In this document: piece after piece, positions 21,188-33,028 of the stretch
Layout: each line of letters starts with the position of its first letter
Position numbering within the stretch: the first letter of the stretch is position 1
Position numbers and translations under genes: made by a program
Assembly: GCA_021496505.1 (NCBI GenBank)
Contig: CP053031.1
Span: 2,844,001-2,908,000 of the forward strand
Source of the DNA: Thermoleophilia bacterium SCSIO 60948
GTDB taxonomy: Bacteria; Actinomycetota; Thermoleophilia; Solirubrobacterales; 70-9
Direction: 5' to 3'
DNA: 64,000 nt
Notes under the pieces: model-generated
Seen by the model: only the letters and a program-made list of their open reading frames with translations
Databases searched by the model: none
Told to the model about the DNA's origin: nothing

Positions 21188-21240
21188 CGAGGCGGGCCGA
21201 GAAGCTGATGCGGGGGCGACCGATCCTCGGCCCACCCGCC
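21188..21240 (+). repeat. Palindromic repeat B, left copy
   Basis: Bases 21188-21211 are identical over 24 nt to 22176-22199. The left half carries GGCGGGCCGAG and the right half CTCGGCCCACCCGCC, giving an imperfect palindrome whose centre (21212-21224) has diverged from the other copies. It lies just before the preferred start of the second DUF559 gene. Confidence 0.8.
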
Positions 21241-21263: not shown

Positions 21264-22196
21264 GTGATAACCGAGCTGGCGGCTTCGCAGATCGGCTTCG
21301 TCGCCGGGTGGCAGCTCGTCGGGGACGGCGTCACGCGGGCGGCTATCCGCCATCGCGTCCGGCGCCGGCGCCTGATCTCGGTCGGCCGCGACGTCTACGC
21401 AGTCGGCCACAACGACGACACGCGCCGGAGTCGATGGATGATCGCCGTGCTCGCCTGCGGTCCAGGTGCCGTCCTCGGCTTCACGAGCGCAGCCGAGCTC
21501 TGGCGGCTCATGGATCCGGCGGGCCGCACGCCGACCGTGATCGTGCGGAGCGGCCGCCACCGCCCTCCGGGAGTGCGCATCCACCGTCCGCGAACGCTCG
21601 ATTCGGCGCATCTGACGCGGAGGTGGCGGATCGCGGTCACCGACACGACGCGAACCCTCTTCGACCTCGCCACCGTGGTCGGCCACAGGCAGCTCCGCGA
21701 GGCGGTCGAGCGCGCCGATCGGCTCGACCTTCTGGATGTCGGCGCGCTCCTCACCCTTTGCGACGACGCAGGCCGCGGCCGGCGCGGGGTCGGCCGGCTG
21801 CGCCGGATCCTTGCCGACTTCACCGCAGACGACTCGCTCAGCGCGTCGGCGCTCGAGGACGATTTCCGGGGGTTGCTCGCCCGCTCGGGCGTCCCGGCCC
21901 CCGCGATCAACGTTCCGATCGGTCCCTATGTCGTCGACTTCGCGTGGGTGCGCGAGCGAGTGATCGTCGAGACCGACGGCTGGAGCGCGCACAAGGGAAA
22001 ACCGAGCTTCGATTCGGACCGCGAGCGATTCGGCCGGTTGCAGTCGCTCGGCTGGAGGGTCCTGCCGGTGACGGCGAAGCGGATCCGTGACGACTCGGCC
22101 GGTCTCCTACGCGACCTCGGCGCGCTCCTCGCCATCGAGGGGCTGGCCGAGCACGATCCCAGAGAGCATCGACGGCGAGGCGGGCCGAGAAGCTGA
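21264..22196 (+). CDS. AbiEi-like winged-helix protein with DUF559 nuclease-fold domain (second paralogue)
   Basis: A protein of 310 residues from GTG 21264, which has GACGAGGG upstream; an alternative GTG at 21183 would add 27 residues encoded by repeat B. The N-terminus (ELAASQIGFVAGWQLVGDGVTRAAIRHRV, then RLISVGRDVYAVG) is the AbiEi winged helix. The C-terminus is a well-formed DUF559 domain: YVVDFAWVRERVIVETDGWSAH and then RFGRLQSLGWRVLPV, with the Asp, Glu-x-Asp and Arg positions of a Vsr/PD-(D/E)XK-like nuclease. The stop TGA (22194-22196) lies inside the right copy of repeat B. No toxin partner is adjacent. Overall plan equals the gene at 905-1852, but the flanking palindrome differs. 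Confidence 0.8.
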   Translation: MITELAASQIGFVAGWQLVGDGVTRAAIRHRVRRRRLISVGRDVYAVGHNDDTRRSRWMIAVLACGPGAVLGFTSAAELWRLMDPAGRTPTVIVRSGRHRPPGVRIHRPRTLDSAHLTRRWRIAVTDTTRTLFDLATVVGHRQLREAVERADRLDLLDVGALLTLCDDAGRGRRGVGRLRRILADFTADDSLSASALEDDFRGLLARSGVPAPAINVPIGPYVVDFAWVRERVIVETDGWSAHKGKPSFDSDRERFGRLQSLGWRVLPVTAKRIRDDSAGLLRDLGALLAIEGLAEHDPREHRRRGGPRS

Positions 22197-22231
22197 TGCC
22201 TGGGCATCTGGTTCTCGGCTCACCTCGATGC
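22166..22231 (+). repeat. Palindromic repeat B, right copy
   Basis: The best-preserved copy. GCCGAGAA (22184-22191) pairs with TTCTCGGC (22212-22219), GATGCC (22195-22200) with GGCATC (22203-22208), and outer GCATCGA (22166-22172) with TCGATGC (22225-22231). It contains the stop codon of the DUF559 gene and shares 24 exact bases with the left copy. Confidence 0.85.
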
Positions 22232-29792: not shown

Positions 29793-30440
29793 ATGAGCGA
29801 CTCACGCGACGCCGGCGCATTCACCGGCGCCTACAAGCTGGCGATCGGCGCCTGCAGGCCCGCGATAGCCGGCTGGGGGCGGATGAAGGTCGAGGGCCTC
29901 GACGCGCTGCCGCCGACCGGACCGGTCCTCCTGGCCGGCAACCACGACTCCTACTGGGACACCGTCTCGATCGGTCTGGCGGCGAAGCCGGTCCGCCAGG
30001 TCCGGGCGCTCGCCAAGGCCGAGCTCTGGAAGGTCCCCGGCCTCGGCGGTCTGCTCGACGGGATGGGTCAGATCCCGATCAACCGCGGCAAGGGCGACAC
30101 CGACGCTCTCGAGAACGCCGTCCGCGAGCTCCGCGCCGGAGCCTGCATCGGGATCTTCCCCGAGGGCACGCGCTCGAAGGGCGCCGAGCTGAGGCCGCGC
30201 AGCGGCATCGGCCGACTCGCCCAGCGTGTGCCCGAGGCGGAGATCGTGTGCGTGGCCGTGGTCGGGACGACCGATTTCACGCGGTTCCCGAAGCGGCCGG
30301 AGGTGACGGTCCGCTTCTTCCGCCCCGCCGAGGGAAACCTGCGACCCGACGAGGACCCCAAGGACTTCGCGGCGCGGCTCGTGCGCGAGATCCGTGCCGA
30401 GGCGCCGTGGGCGGCGCTCGGCCGCAAGGCGAGCGCCTAG
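29793..30440 (+). CDS. 1-acyl-sn-glycerol-3-phosphate acyltransferase (PlsC-like)
   Basis: A 215-residue acyltransferase of the PlsC/LPLAT family, which esterifies position 2 of lysophosphatidate in phospholipid synthesis. The catalytic NHxxxxD motif is GNHDSYWD. The second block GQIPINRGKGD and the glycerol-phosphate-binding block FPEGTRSKG follow at normal distances. No obvious transmembrane anchor is present, so it is peripheral at the inner membrane face. It has its own transcription unit after the cysC terminator; the solo repeat B lies 23 bases past its stop codon and might act as its terminator. Confidence 0.88.
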   Translation: MSDSRDAGAFTGAYKLAIGACRPAIAGWGRMKVEGLDALPPTGPVLLAGNHDSYWDTVSIGLAAKPVRQVRALAKAELWKVPGLGGLLDGMGQIPINRGKGDTDALENAVRELRAGACIGIFPEGTRSKGAELRPRSGIGRLAQRVPEAEIVCVAVVGTTDFTRFPKRPEVTVRFFRPAEGNLRPDEDPKDFAARLVREIRAEAPWAALGRKASA

Positions 30441-30463
30441 CCCGGCCCCGGCGTCCGAGGTCG

Positions 30464-30499
30464 GCCGAGAAGCCGTCGCCCCGGCATCAGGTTCTCGGC
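30464..30499 (+). repeat. Palindromic repeat B, solo copy
   Basis: GCCGAGAA (30464-30471) and TTCTCGGC (30492-30499) match the arms of the right B copy. The core GCATCAGG also matches, allowing one change, while the opposite half-core has diverged. The nearest DUF559 gene is more than 8 kb away. It lies between plsC and the queuosine salvage gene, in the same direction as the other copies. Confidence 0.75.
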
Positions 30500-30523
30500 A
30501 CGGTTCGCGGCGAAAGGGACTCG

Positions 30524-31441
30524 GTGGACCTGCTGGACGAAATACGCGAAGCGACCGCCGCCGTGGCGGCGCGAGCGCGCTTCGTATCGATCGACGAGAC
30601 ACGCGTCGTGCCGCTCGCCCGGGAGCTCGTCGCCGAGCTCGGATCGGTGGGCGAGGCGGGTCTGCCACTCGCCGACCGGCCACTCGCCGAGCGCGCCGCC
30701 TACGCGCTTGCCTTCGACGCCGTCAACTTCGGATCGGGGTGGTGGCCGACGATCCGCAAGCGACCCGGGATGTCGGGCTCGCAGACGATGATGGCCGCGC
30801 TCGAGGATCACTTCCGACGCGCCGCGGCGCCGGCGCCCGATGAGCTCAGCTCGATCACGTCCGCTGAGGTCGCCGTGATCTTCGGGCAGGACCCCGAGCA
30901 CGAGCTGATGGCGCTCTACGCCGCGGCACTGCGCGAGCTCGGCAGCTTCGCGGCCGAAGCCGGGGGCTGGCTCGAGCTGAGCGACTCCCTCGGTGGTTCG
31001 GCCACCGCCGCCGTCACGACCCTCAGCCGCCGGCCGAGCTTCGCCGACGCCTCGACGCACGACGGCCATCCGGTCCCGATCTTCAAACGCGCCCAGATCG
31101 CCGTCGCCGACCTCAACCGGACCGGCGCCCGGTCGGACCCCGACCTCGACCGGCTCACCCTGTTCGCCGACAACCTGATCCCGCACGTCCTCAAGATCGA
31201 CGGTCTGCTGCGATTCGACCCGGCGCTCGACGCCCGAATCGACGCCGAGGAGCTCATCGATCACGGGTCGCGCGAGGAGGTCGAGATCCGCGCGGTGGCG
31301 ATCCACGCCGTCGAGCTGCTCGCCGCCGCCACCGGCGGCGGAGCGACGCCGGCCGAGCTCGACGAGCTGCTCTGGCATCGCGGGCGCGCGCCGCGCTACA
31401 AGGCGCGGCCACGGCATCGCTCGCGAACGACGGCCTACTAG
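30524..31441 (+). CDS. Queuosine 5'-phosphate N-glycosylase/hydrolase family (DUF2419)
   Basis: A 305-residue protein that looks like the queuosine salvage family (Qng1/DUF2419), which releases queuine from queuosine 5'-phosphate. Matching landmarks are the FDAVNFGSGWWP segment, which corresponds to the family's aromatic N-F-x-x-W-P block, FKRAQIAVADL, LTLFADNLIPHVL, the acidic LRFDPALDARIDAEE stretch, and the basic C-terminus RHRSRTTAY, resembling the conserved HRTRT-x-Y end. GTG 30524 has GAAAGG 6 bases upstream; in-frame sequence before it crosses the solo repeat B and lies inside plsC in another frame. No tgt or other queuosine gene is nearby. Confidence 0.72.
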   Translation: MDLLDEIREATAAVAARARFVSIDETRVVPLARELVAELGSVGEAGLPLADRPLAERAAYALAFDAVNFGSGWWPTIRKRPGMSGSQTMMAALEDHFRRAAAPAPDELSSITSAEVAVIFGQDPEHELMALYAAALRELGSFAAEAGGWLELSDSLGGSATAAVTTLSRRPSFADASTHDGHPVPIFKRAQIAVADLNRTGARSDPDLDRLTLFADNLIPHVLKIDGLLRFDPALDARIDAEELIDHGSREEVEIRAVAIHAVELLAAATGGGATPAELDELLWHRGRAPRYKARPRHRSRTTAY

Positions 31442-31740: not shown

Positions 31741-31921
31741 GCCGGTCCAAGAACTGATGAGCTGCGAACCATTCCCGCGTGAGGACGAGCTGGTAGCCAA
31801 GAGCTGACCGCCGCAGCATCTCTTTTCTTAGGTGGCGCGTAGAACGGACCGGCCTCTAAATTTGTTCGACCACCAGCTGCGACCGAATGGTGGTACTCGA
31901 CAGAAAATAGTGATACTGGCG

Positions 31922-31935
31922 GCTATCTATATAGC
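31922..31935 (+). promoter_or_regulatory. AT-rich dyad before the Fic gene
   Basis: GCTAT-CTAT-ATAGC lies 22 bases before ATG 31958 in an unusually AT-rich stretch that also contains -10-like TATCTA. It is a candidate promoter and operator, and its presence argues against a start further upstream. Confidence 0.4.
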
Positions 31936-31957
31936 TAATCTGTCCGCCCAGATCACT

Positions 31958-33028
31958 ATGAAGAGCTTTTCCCTAGACGATCGAGCTTTCAACGGACAGC
32001 CCGCCGATATCGGCGTCCTCCTACAAAGAGTCGATGTTGGCCGCGGTCGCGAGGAGCTCTATATGGATCAAGCTCCACAGCTGCTCAAGGCTCTCGCGCA
32101 ACAGAGCCGAGTGGAGTCGATCAAGGCATCAAGTGCCATCGAGGGCATCGACGTCGCCGAGGCGCGAGCGCGACGACTCGCGGGCTCCGGGAACACGACG
32201 ATGCGCAATCGCGATGAGCGCGAGTTCGCCGGGTATCGCGACGCGATCGACTACCTCGTCCGACTCGGCCGATGGGAACCACCGACTATCGGGCTCACAC
32301 TTCATCTCCACCGATTGCTGTATCGCCACACCGCTGGTACCGGCGGGGCCCTCAAGACCGAGAACAACGAGATCTCGGACCGAGACGAGGACGGATTTAG
32401 ATTCACGGTATTCCGCCCCGTGGACCACACAGAGACCCCATATTTTCTGCAAGAGCTTTTCGACCGCTACAGAGAGGCCAGCAAGCGACAAGCAGCGCAT
32501 CCTCTGCTGCTGCTAGCGGCAATGGTCGTCGACTTCCTGGCGATACATCCGGTCGAGGATGGCAACGGACGTCTTGCGCGTCTCCTCACAGCTCACGAAC
32601 TAATGCGGCTCGACTACGGCGTGGTCCGATACGTAAGCATCGAGCAGAGGATCTTCGACACGAAGAACTCTTACTACACGGCCCTCGAGCAGTCTCAGCG
32701 CGAATGGCACGAAGGCGAGCACGAGATCTGGGCCTGGACCCGCTACCTGCTTGAGGTCCTTGCCGAGGCATACGACGACTTCGAAGCCAAGGTTGCGGCC
32801 GCCGGCTCAGGGACGAGCAAGCGCGAGCGAGTTAGGAATCACGTCCTCCATCTGGGCCCTGATGAATTCCGGTTTCGTGATGTGACCTCAGCCCTCCCCG
32901 GTGTTAGCCAAGCGACGGTTCGTAAGGTCCTCAATGAGCTGAGGGACGCAGATTTGATCTCGACGACCGGTCACGGTGCCGGCGCGGTCTGGATTAGACC
33001 CGCGCCGACGGACGATCAGGCGGGGTAG
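31958..33028 (+). CDS. Fic-domain protein with N-terminal inhibitory motif
   Basis: A 356-residue Fic protein from ATG 31958. Fic enzymes transfer AMP or another nucleotide part to target hydroxyls. The core motif is HPVEDGNGRLARLL (His197), with Val in place of the usual Phe. An inhibitory-helix motif SSAIEG (Glu62) near the N-terminus marks a class II, self-inhibited Fic. The C-terminal 90 residues contain a winged-helix-like region (FRFRDVTSALPGVSQATVRKVLNELRDADLI), so it may bind DNA. The 5' region is clearly AT-richer than its neighbours and uses rarer codons, a sign of recent acquisition. An in-frame GTG at 31832 would place the promoter-like dyad inside the gene. Its end overlaps the convergent PHP gene by 13 bases. 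Confidence 0.85.
   Translation: MKSFSLDDRAFNGQPADIGVLLQRVDVGRGREELYMDQAPQLLKALAQQSRVESIKASSAIEGIDVAEARARRLAGSGNTTMRNRDEREFAGYRDAIDYLVRLGRWEPPTIGLTLHLHRLLYRHTAGTGGALKTENNEISDRDEDGFRFTVFRPVDHTETPYFLQELFDRYREASKRQAAHPLLLLAAMVVDFLAIHPVEDGNGRLARLLTAHELMRLDYGVVRYVSIEQRIFDTKNSYYTALEQSQREWHEGEHEIWAWTRYLLEVLAEAYDDFEAKVAAAGSGTSKRERVRNHVLHLGPDEFRFRDVTSALPGVSQATVRKVLNELRDADLISTTGHGAGAVWIRPAPTDDQAG

Follow-up and report, generated by a model that had tools for sequence, protein, structure and literature searches.

A DUF559 gene and dispersed short palindromes in the genome of Thermoleophilia bacterium SCSIO 60948

The DNA analysed here, called the window below, is a 64,000-nucleotide stretch of Thermoleophilia bacterium SCSIO 60948 (positions 2844001-2908000 of CP053031.1, the single 3.42-Mb contig that makes up the genome). 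Between a plsC-like acyltransferase gene and a queuosine-salvage gene it carries a short palindrome with its core at 30464-30499, the arms of which, GCCGAGAA and TTCTCGGC, match exactly. This plsC copy belongs to a repeat, family B, of which the genome has ten copies: a DUF559 gene lies between two of them, in direct orientation, and the other eight are solos located between genes. An earlier note, made from the letters of the window, had described the palindrome as a solo lying more than 8 kb from the right flanking copy; the palindrome is real and the distance is correct, the nearest DUF559 gene being approximately 8.3 kb away. The coordinates of these features are given in Table 1.

The family B palindrome and its copies

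The family B element is approximately 52 bp in length, longer than first noted, with outer arms near CGAGGTGG/CCACCTCG that are weakly kept in the plsC copy. The plsC copy starts 15 nt past the plsC stop codon and ends 16 nt ahead of the GTG of the queuosine-salvage gene. The right flanking copy also has exact arms (core 22184-22219), and the left flanking copy has one mismatch (core 21196-21231). The earlier note had stated that half of the core matches the right flanking copy. Compared by eye, this is a fair description of the right half (8/10 positions), and the left half agrees at 6/10.

Within the 64-kb window, three matches to the arm pattern were found at up to 3 mismatches, compared to a mean of 1.0 in shuffled sequence, and three were reached in 5 of 100 shuffles. 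As these statistics are only suggestive and too weak to decide the matter, the whole genome was used. Genome-wide, at up to 2 mismatches, there were 26 matches to the forward pattern and 2 to the reversed pattern. A 56-position model of family B identified ten places at an E value of 5e-7 or better, taking the better strand at each place, and the next place had an E value of 0.75. The model was built from nine of these copies, so their scores are partly circular; the tenth copy (3019070) is independent. The copies are only approximately 80% alike. In 40 relatives a single weak match was obtained, in G013 (E 6e-4), and family B was absent from G001, which is 54% complete and is the only genome of the same genus that was searched. 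An exact-pattern scan of genome contigs gave no matches. The ten copies in this genome, together with the near absence of the family from the relatives searched, support the earlier suggestion that the palindrome disperses.

The inner half-sites of family B occur as approximately three variants (GATGC, GACGC and GTCGC), which are mixed between the arms of one palindrome and often leave T-T or A-A mismatches, a pattern that would fit an exchange of halves among copies. A solo hairpin elsewhere in the genome (L013, approximately 1487-1550; G000:C1 near 363920), whose inner arms are ACCGAGAA and whose outer arms are GGGCGGG/CCCGCCC, resembles family B and is not a member of it; there is no DUF559 match nearby. 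Soon after the queuosine-salvage gene is a Fic-domain gene (31832-33028 of the window; PF02661), and the DNA reads as locally less GC-rich.

Table 1. Features of the window discussed in the text (window coordinates)
Feature	Position	Strand	Details
Left flanking family B copy	21188..21239	.	Ends 24 bp ahead of the DUF559 start codon
DUF559 gene	21264..22196	+	GTG start; Pfam PF04480, E 4.8e-10; predicted AbiEi-like N-terminal region and EDxHD/Vsr-like nuclease domain
Right flanking family B copy	22176..22227	.	Overlaps the final 21 nt of the DUF559 gene
plsC-like acyltransferase gene, 5' of solo copy	29793..30440	+	PF01553, E 1.4e-22
Solo family B palindrome (plsC copy)	30456..30507	.	Core 30464-30499; model match 30454-30509; between plsC and queuosine-salvage gene
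Queuosine-salvage gene, 3' of solo copy	30524..31441	+	PF10343, E 1.6e-34; GTG start from gene caller

DUF559 genes and their flanking repeats

The arrangement of two palindromes around a DUF559 gene was also found with other sequences. Family C, a second palindrome of the same genome that is unrelated to family B, has eight copies, of which two are direct copies bracketing another DUF559 gene and six are solos. This second gene (L018, G000:C1:1857898-1861089, between 1424 and 2436) is split over two frames, and its palindromes are well kept. A third family, in G044 (genus g10), has 11 copies, two bracketing a DUF559 gene and nine solo; among eight congeners of G044 it was present in two copies in one, in one copy in another and in none of the remaining six, and the reversed control gave no matches. 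A fourth theme, CGACTTTT-N-AAAAGTCG, was present in 4 of the 61 genomes, compared to 1 for its reversed control; G003 has one solo and two copies that flank a DUF559 gene. None of 27 palindrome copies was inside a predicted gene.

DUF559 genes were found in 48 of the 61 genomes searched, with up to 13 per genome. Their link to flanking repeats was assessed by comparing the segment ahead of each gene with that at its stop codon and scoring the best shared repeat, with a threshold score of 20. The first set consisted of 75 loci, 6 from this genome and 69 from relatives, of which one was dropped because of a short segment; three places had been taken twice (L066/L101, L067/L105 and L070/L094), so the 74 tested loci are 71 distinct ones. 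A matching repeat at start and stop, scoring at least 20, was obtained for 20 of the 74, compared to 5 of 5400 mismatched pairs, most of which paired loci with alike palindromes. Of the 20 best loci, 16 have directly oriented flanking copies. A second, named set of 79 loci (75 testable) gave 12 with a score of at least 20 versus 8 of 5550 mismatched pairs. This set overlaps the first: by repeat sequence, seven of the 12 are the same loci and five are new (L189, L198, L209, L225 and L235). Of the six loci in this genome, L017 and L018 passed and L016, L019, L020 and L021 failed. Similarity between proteins and similarity between palindromes were correlated over the 41 loci with a palindrome or shared repeat (Mantel r 0.29), and none of 5000 permutations gave a value as high.

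Some loci had other arrangements. At L020 and L021 a palindrome ends just ahead of the DUF559 start codon and no matching copy is found at the stop codon, while at L071, L079, L100 and L130 the DUF559 gene lies between strong direct repeats that score poorly as palindromes. In the DUF559-flanking palindromes of relatives the centre is often CATA/TATG or CTATAG, whatever the arms.

The structure of the window DUF559 protein was predicted with a mean predicted local distance difference test (pLDDT) score of 89.4. Residues 1-187 of the model match the antitoxin AbiEi (6y8q; Z 13.6 over 176 residues, root-mean-square deviation (rmsd) 3.5) and Rv2827c (1zel; Z 9.5), and the matches for residues 195-292 are the catalytic domain of the EDxHD homing endonuclease I-Bth0305I (3r3p; Z 12.2 over 94 residues, rmsd 2.7) and Vsr (1cw0; Z 10.3). 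The protein is thus predicted to be an AbiEi-like DNA-binding region fused to an EDxHD/Vsr-type nuclease domain. By sequence, AbiEi_4 was above the cut-off in two of seven proteins scanned and was not among the matches of the window protein. In 49 aligned proteins D225, E236, H243 and D252 are invariant columns, and D238 is present in at least 90%. A fold in common with I-Bth0305I and Vsr does not itself show a function. AbiEi is described as binding inverted repeats in its own promoter (PMC7319586), I-Bth0305I as dimerising on a target of nearly 60 bp (PMC3943268), and VsrA, a DUF559 protein of Caulobacter, as Vsr-like (PMC12907096).

Presence and absence at orthologous sites

The junction of plsC and the queuosine-salvage gene is syntenic in G001, where both genes have approximately 77% nucleotide identity, and it contains no palindrome. 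The earlier note had proposed this comparison in the expectation that a clean presence/absence polymorphism would speak for mobility; the palindrome is indeed absent, but the spacer has diverged, so the junction is not a clean insertion or deletion.

In G044, a solo of the third family is located within a junction of approximately 107 bp from an Aminotran_5 gene to a NifU_N gene (SufS- and SufU-like by Pfam). The same genes are 4-5 bp apart in G017 and G041, and five further congeners have other DNA after the Aminotran_5 gene; the palindrome is present in none of them. A second G044 solo is located in 287 bp, the counterpart of which in G010 is 93 bp without a palindrome. Whole palindrome-gene-palindrome units vary as well: the L111 unit, contained in 1278 bp of G044, has 26 bp in its place in G048 and approximately 126 bp in G010, and the L056 unit is missing from its place in G010. 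At two other sites of the G044 family the differences were of another kind, the matched flanks of L110 being further apart in G010, with more DNA between them, and the palindrome of L152 being missing together with a neighbouring gene. The remaining G044 solos had no usable two-sided match in the examined pieces of G010 and G048. A DUF559 gene that follows mmdA was lacking in 9 of 9 relatives, and since the downstream genes are unrelated too, this comparison gives no exact empty site.

Origin of the palindromes and relation to known systems

We propose, with a probability of a little under 60%, that the plsC palindrome is one non-coding, dispersed representative of a short repeat, with the DUF559 gene approximately 8.3 kb away as its cognate. 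Such an arrangement would resemble repetitive extragenic palindromic (REP) sequences and their REP-associated tyrosine transposases (RAYTs), with the palindromes served by a different nuclease. A DUF559 dimer would bind the palindrome of approximately 50 bp via its AbiEi-like region, one half-site per monomer, and the nuclease would cut at or near the palindromes. Repair or copying after the cut could then occasionally carry a palindrome, or the bracketed gene, to an intergenic site elsewhere. In this view, palindrome, gene and second palindrome together would make up the 'full' element, and the solos would be miniature forms derived from it, in the same relation as REPs to RAYT genes. The analysis shows the dispersed families, the association of gene with palindrome, the absences at orthologous sites and the predicted folds; binding, cutting and copying are inferred, and so is mobility, from comparison of sequences. 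More tentatively, at somewhat less than even odds, AbiEi-EDxHD (DUF559) genes and their cognate palindromes may be a new class of mobile element that arose independently of REP/RAYT, in which a homing-type nuclease without a transposase would spread palindromes of approximately 50 bp in trans and its own bracketed gene in cis, with many private gene-palindrome pairs across the Solirubrobacterales.

Several results weigh against the proposal. No movement, binding or cleavage was observed, and no target-site duplication was found. Most of the 'empty' sites are not exact, because the comparator genomes are approximately 70-88% identical; the insertion at L173, read by eye since the MAFFT alignment was misaligned, includes approximately 50 bp besides the palindrome, and that at L111 has approximately 110 and 40 bp of extra flank. 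The coding sequence of the family C DUF559 gene spans two frames, so the gene is frameshifted or mis-assembled, and as copies within a family are only about 80% alike, any activity would be old. The repeat test was failed by 51 of the 71 distinct DUF559 loci, so the association, although general, is not an obligate one. Finally, the Mantel correlation is modest and the Spearman correlation is weak (0.11).

The main rival, which is live although we consider it unlikely, is that the solos are scars: full elements would have inserted, and recombination or slippage between the direct copies would have removed the gene so that a single palindrome stayed behind, as in solo long terminal repeats. The predominantly direct orientation of the flanking copies is what this requires, no DUF559 remnant was found close to any solo scanned, as expected after a precise deletion, and whole elements do vary in presence, the L111 element being absent from both G048 and G010. 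However, each of the three counted families has one full element versus 6 to 9 solos, and the copies, being short (approximately 50 bp) and diverged, are poor substrates for recombination.

It is improbable that the palindromes are operators bound by the AbiEi-like region, through which DUF559 would regulate itself and a regulon at the other sites. The binding of inverted repeats by AbiEi, the predicted AbiEi fold of the N-terminal half and the left copy just ahead of the DUF559 start codon would all suit such a role, and autoregulation may be compatible with dispersal by a cognate nuclease. On the other hand, the sites are not kept at orthologous loci, and most solos (19 of 25, with a simple gene caller) are found in the first 60 nt past a stop codon, only 2 of 25 being located between divergent genes.

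The same placement, compared to 28% of intergenic positions of the window just after a stop codon, could suggest a terminator or messenger RNA 3' structure of plsC and similar genes, although the figure is rough because of the home-made gene caller and a window-only control without convergent intergenic space. Three other palindrome copies also fold very stably as RNA relative to shuffles (z -4.6 to -5.9). The z score was however -0.05 for the plsC copy and -0.47 for the left flanking copy, and a U-tract is lacking at the plsC copy, as are terminator-like and promoter-like sites. Nine family B copies gave no compensatory change beyond chance in what is a small sample (double changes at 2 pairs versus 3.5 in shuffles; pairing 77.3% versus 79.6%). 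The third-family solo of G044 separates the sufS-sufU-like pair, and terminators do not need a common 50-bp sequence. The role in plsC termination that the earlier note had offered as a second possibility is not supported, since a U-tract or terminator site, excess hairpin stability and covariation are all lacking, and a terminator reading of the family is quite improbable. A weak secondary role is possible given the preference for positions after stop codons, which may itself be a preference of insertion or the result of selection against damage.

Least probable of all is that an unlinked transposase, of a RAYT or insertion sequence (IS), moves the palindromes as miniature inverted-repeat transposable elements (MITEs) with DUF559 genes as passengers. 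In its favour, MITEs and REPs typically are short dispersed palindromes (PMC3733652). Against it, a DUF559 gene is bracketed in each of three palindrome families that are unrelated to one another, and Y1_Tnp (PF01797) was found in none of six genomes searched, including G000 and G044, versus 5 of 14 control genomes, the search being for Y1 and not for other IS transposases.

Dispersal with a cognate nuclease invites comparison with REP/RAYT systems. As in these systems (REPtrons) and in REPINs, the palindromes are short, dispersed and intergenic (10, 8 and 11 copies in the three families), two copies bracket a nuclease gene, the cognate palindrome is abundant where the gene is present, and similarity of genes is correlated with similarity of palindromes (PMC2817692 and PMC3116915). 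In contrast to REP/RAYT, no Y1 (IS200/IS605-type) tyrosine transposase was found, the nuclease here being DUF559 with an AbiEi-like region. The flanking copies are mostly direct, whereas RAYTs have been described as always having inverted REPs on their flanks; there are 8-11 copies here compared to 37-427 in reports on Stenotrophomonas; and the ends of the family B palindrome, aligned and read by eye, have no GTAG/GTGG head. The DUF559-palindrome system would work like REP/RAYT, yet it departs from it in three tested features, namely enzyme, orientation and GTAG head.

With the EDxHD homing endonucleases such as I-Bth0305I and with Vsr the DUF559 protein shares a predicted nuclease fold and the invariant D, E, H and D columns, but here the domain is fused to an AbiEi-like region, and the gene is freestanding between palindromes and not in an intron. 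We know of no counterpart to the dispersed solo palindromes among EDxHD homing endonucleases or Vsr. The absence of elements at orthologous sites of congeners is compatible with homing, in which a long specific site would be cut and the nuclease gene copied. The DUF3800 RNA motifs, represented in Rfam by DUF3800-IX, offer a parallel in that a number of dissimilar hairpins are each found close to genes of a single uncharacterised protein family. In an Rfam search (evalue mode) of eight DUF559 loci, no palindrome reached the gathering score of any family; the sub-threshold matches were mostly microRNA models on one strong hairpin of L081, with DUF3800-IX elsewhere in L051. The antitoxins AbiEi and Rv2827c of type IV toxin-antitoxin systems are alike in the predicted fold of the N-terminal 187 residues, and AbiEi is reported to bind inverted repeats (PMC7319586); they differ in that a nuclease domain follows in the DUF559 protein. 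CGTC-tagged REPs are likewise dispersed palindromes without a dedicated Y1 transposase; they are reported to lack a dedicated transposase gene (PMC3733652), and the family B consensus end, judged by eye, is without a CGTC tag.

In the open-licence literature searched, neither the association of DUF559 with palindromes nor a role for the fusion of DUF559 with an AbiEi-like region was found described. The arrangement has the look of miniature mobile DNA of a type not described before, and there is a fair chance that the system is a new kind altogether. If DUF559 genes serve private palindromes, a large 'unknown' family would gain a function and a direct test of its substrate. It would also mean that dispersed repeats of the REP type can form around a nuclease with no relation to RAYT, and would offer a place to seek the missing enzyme of those REP families that are reported without a dedicated transposase (PMC3733652).
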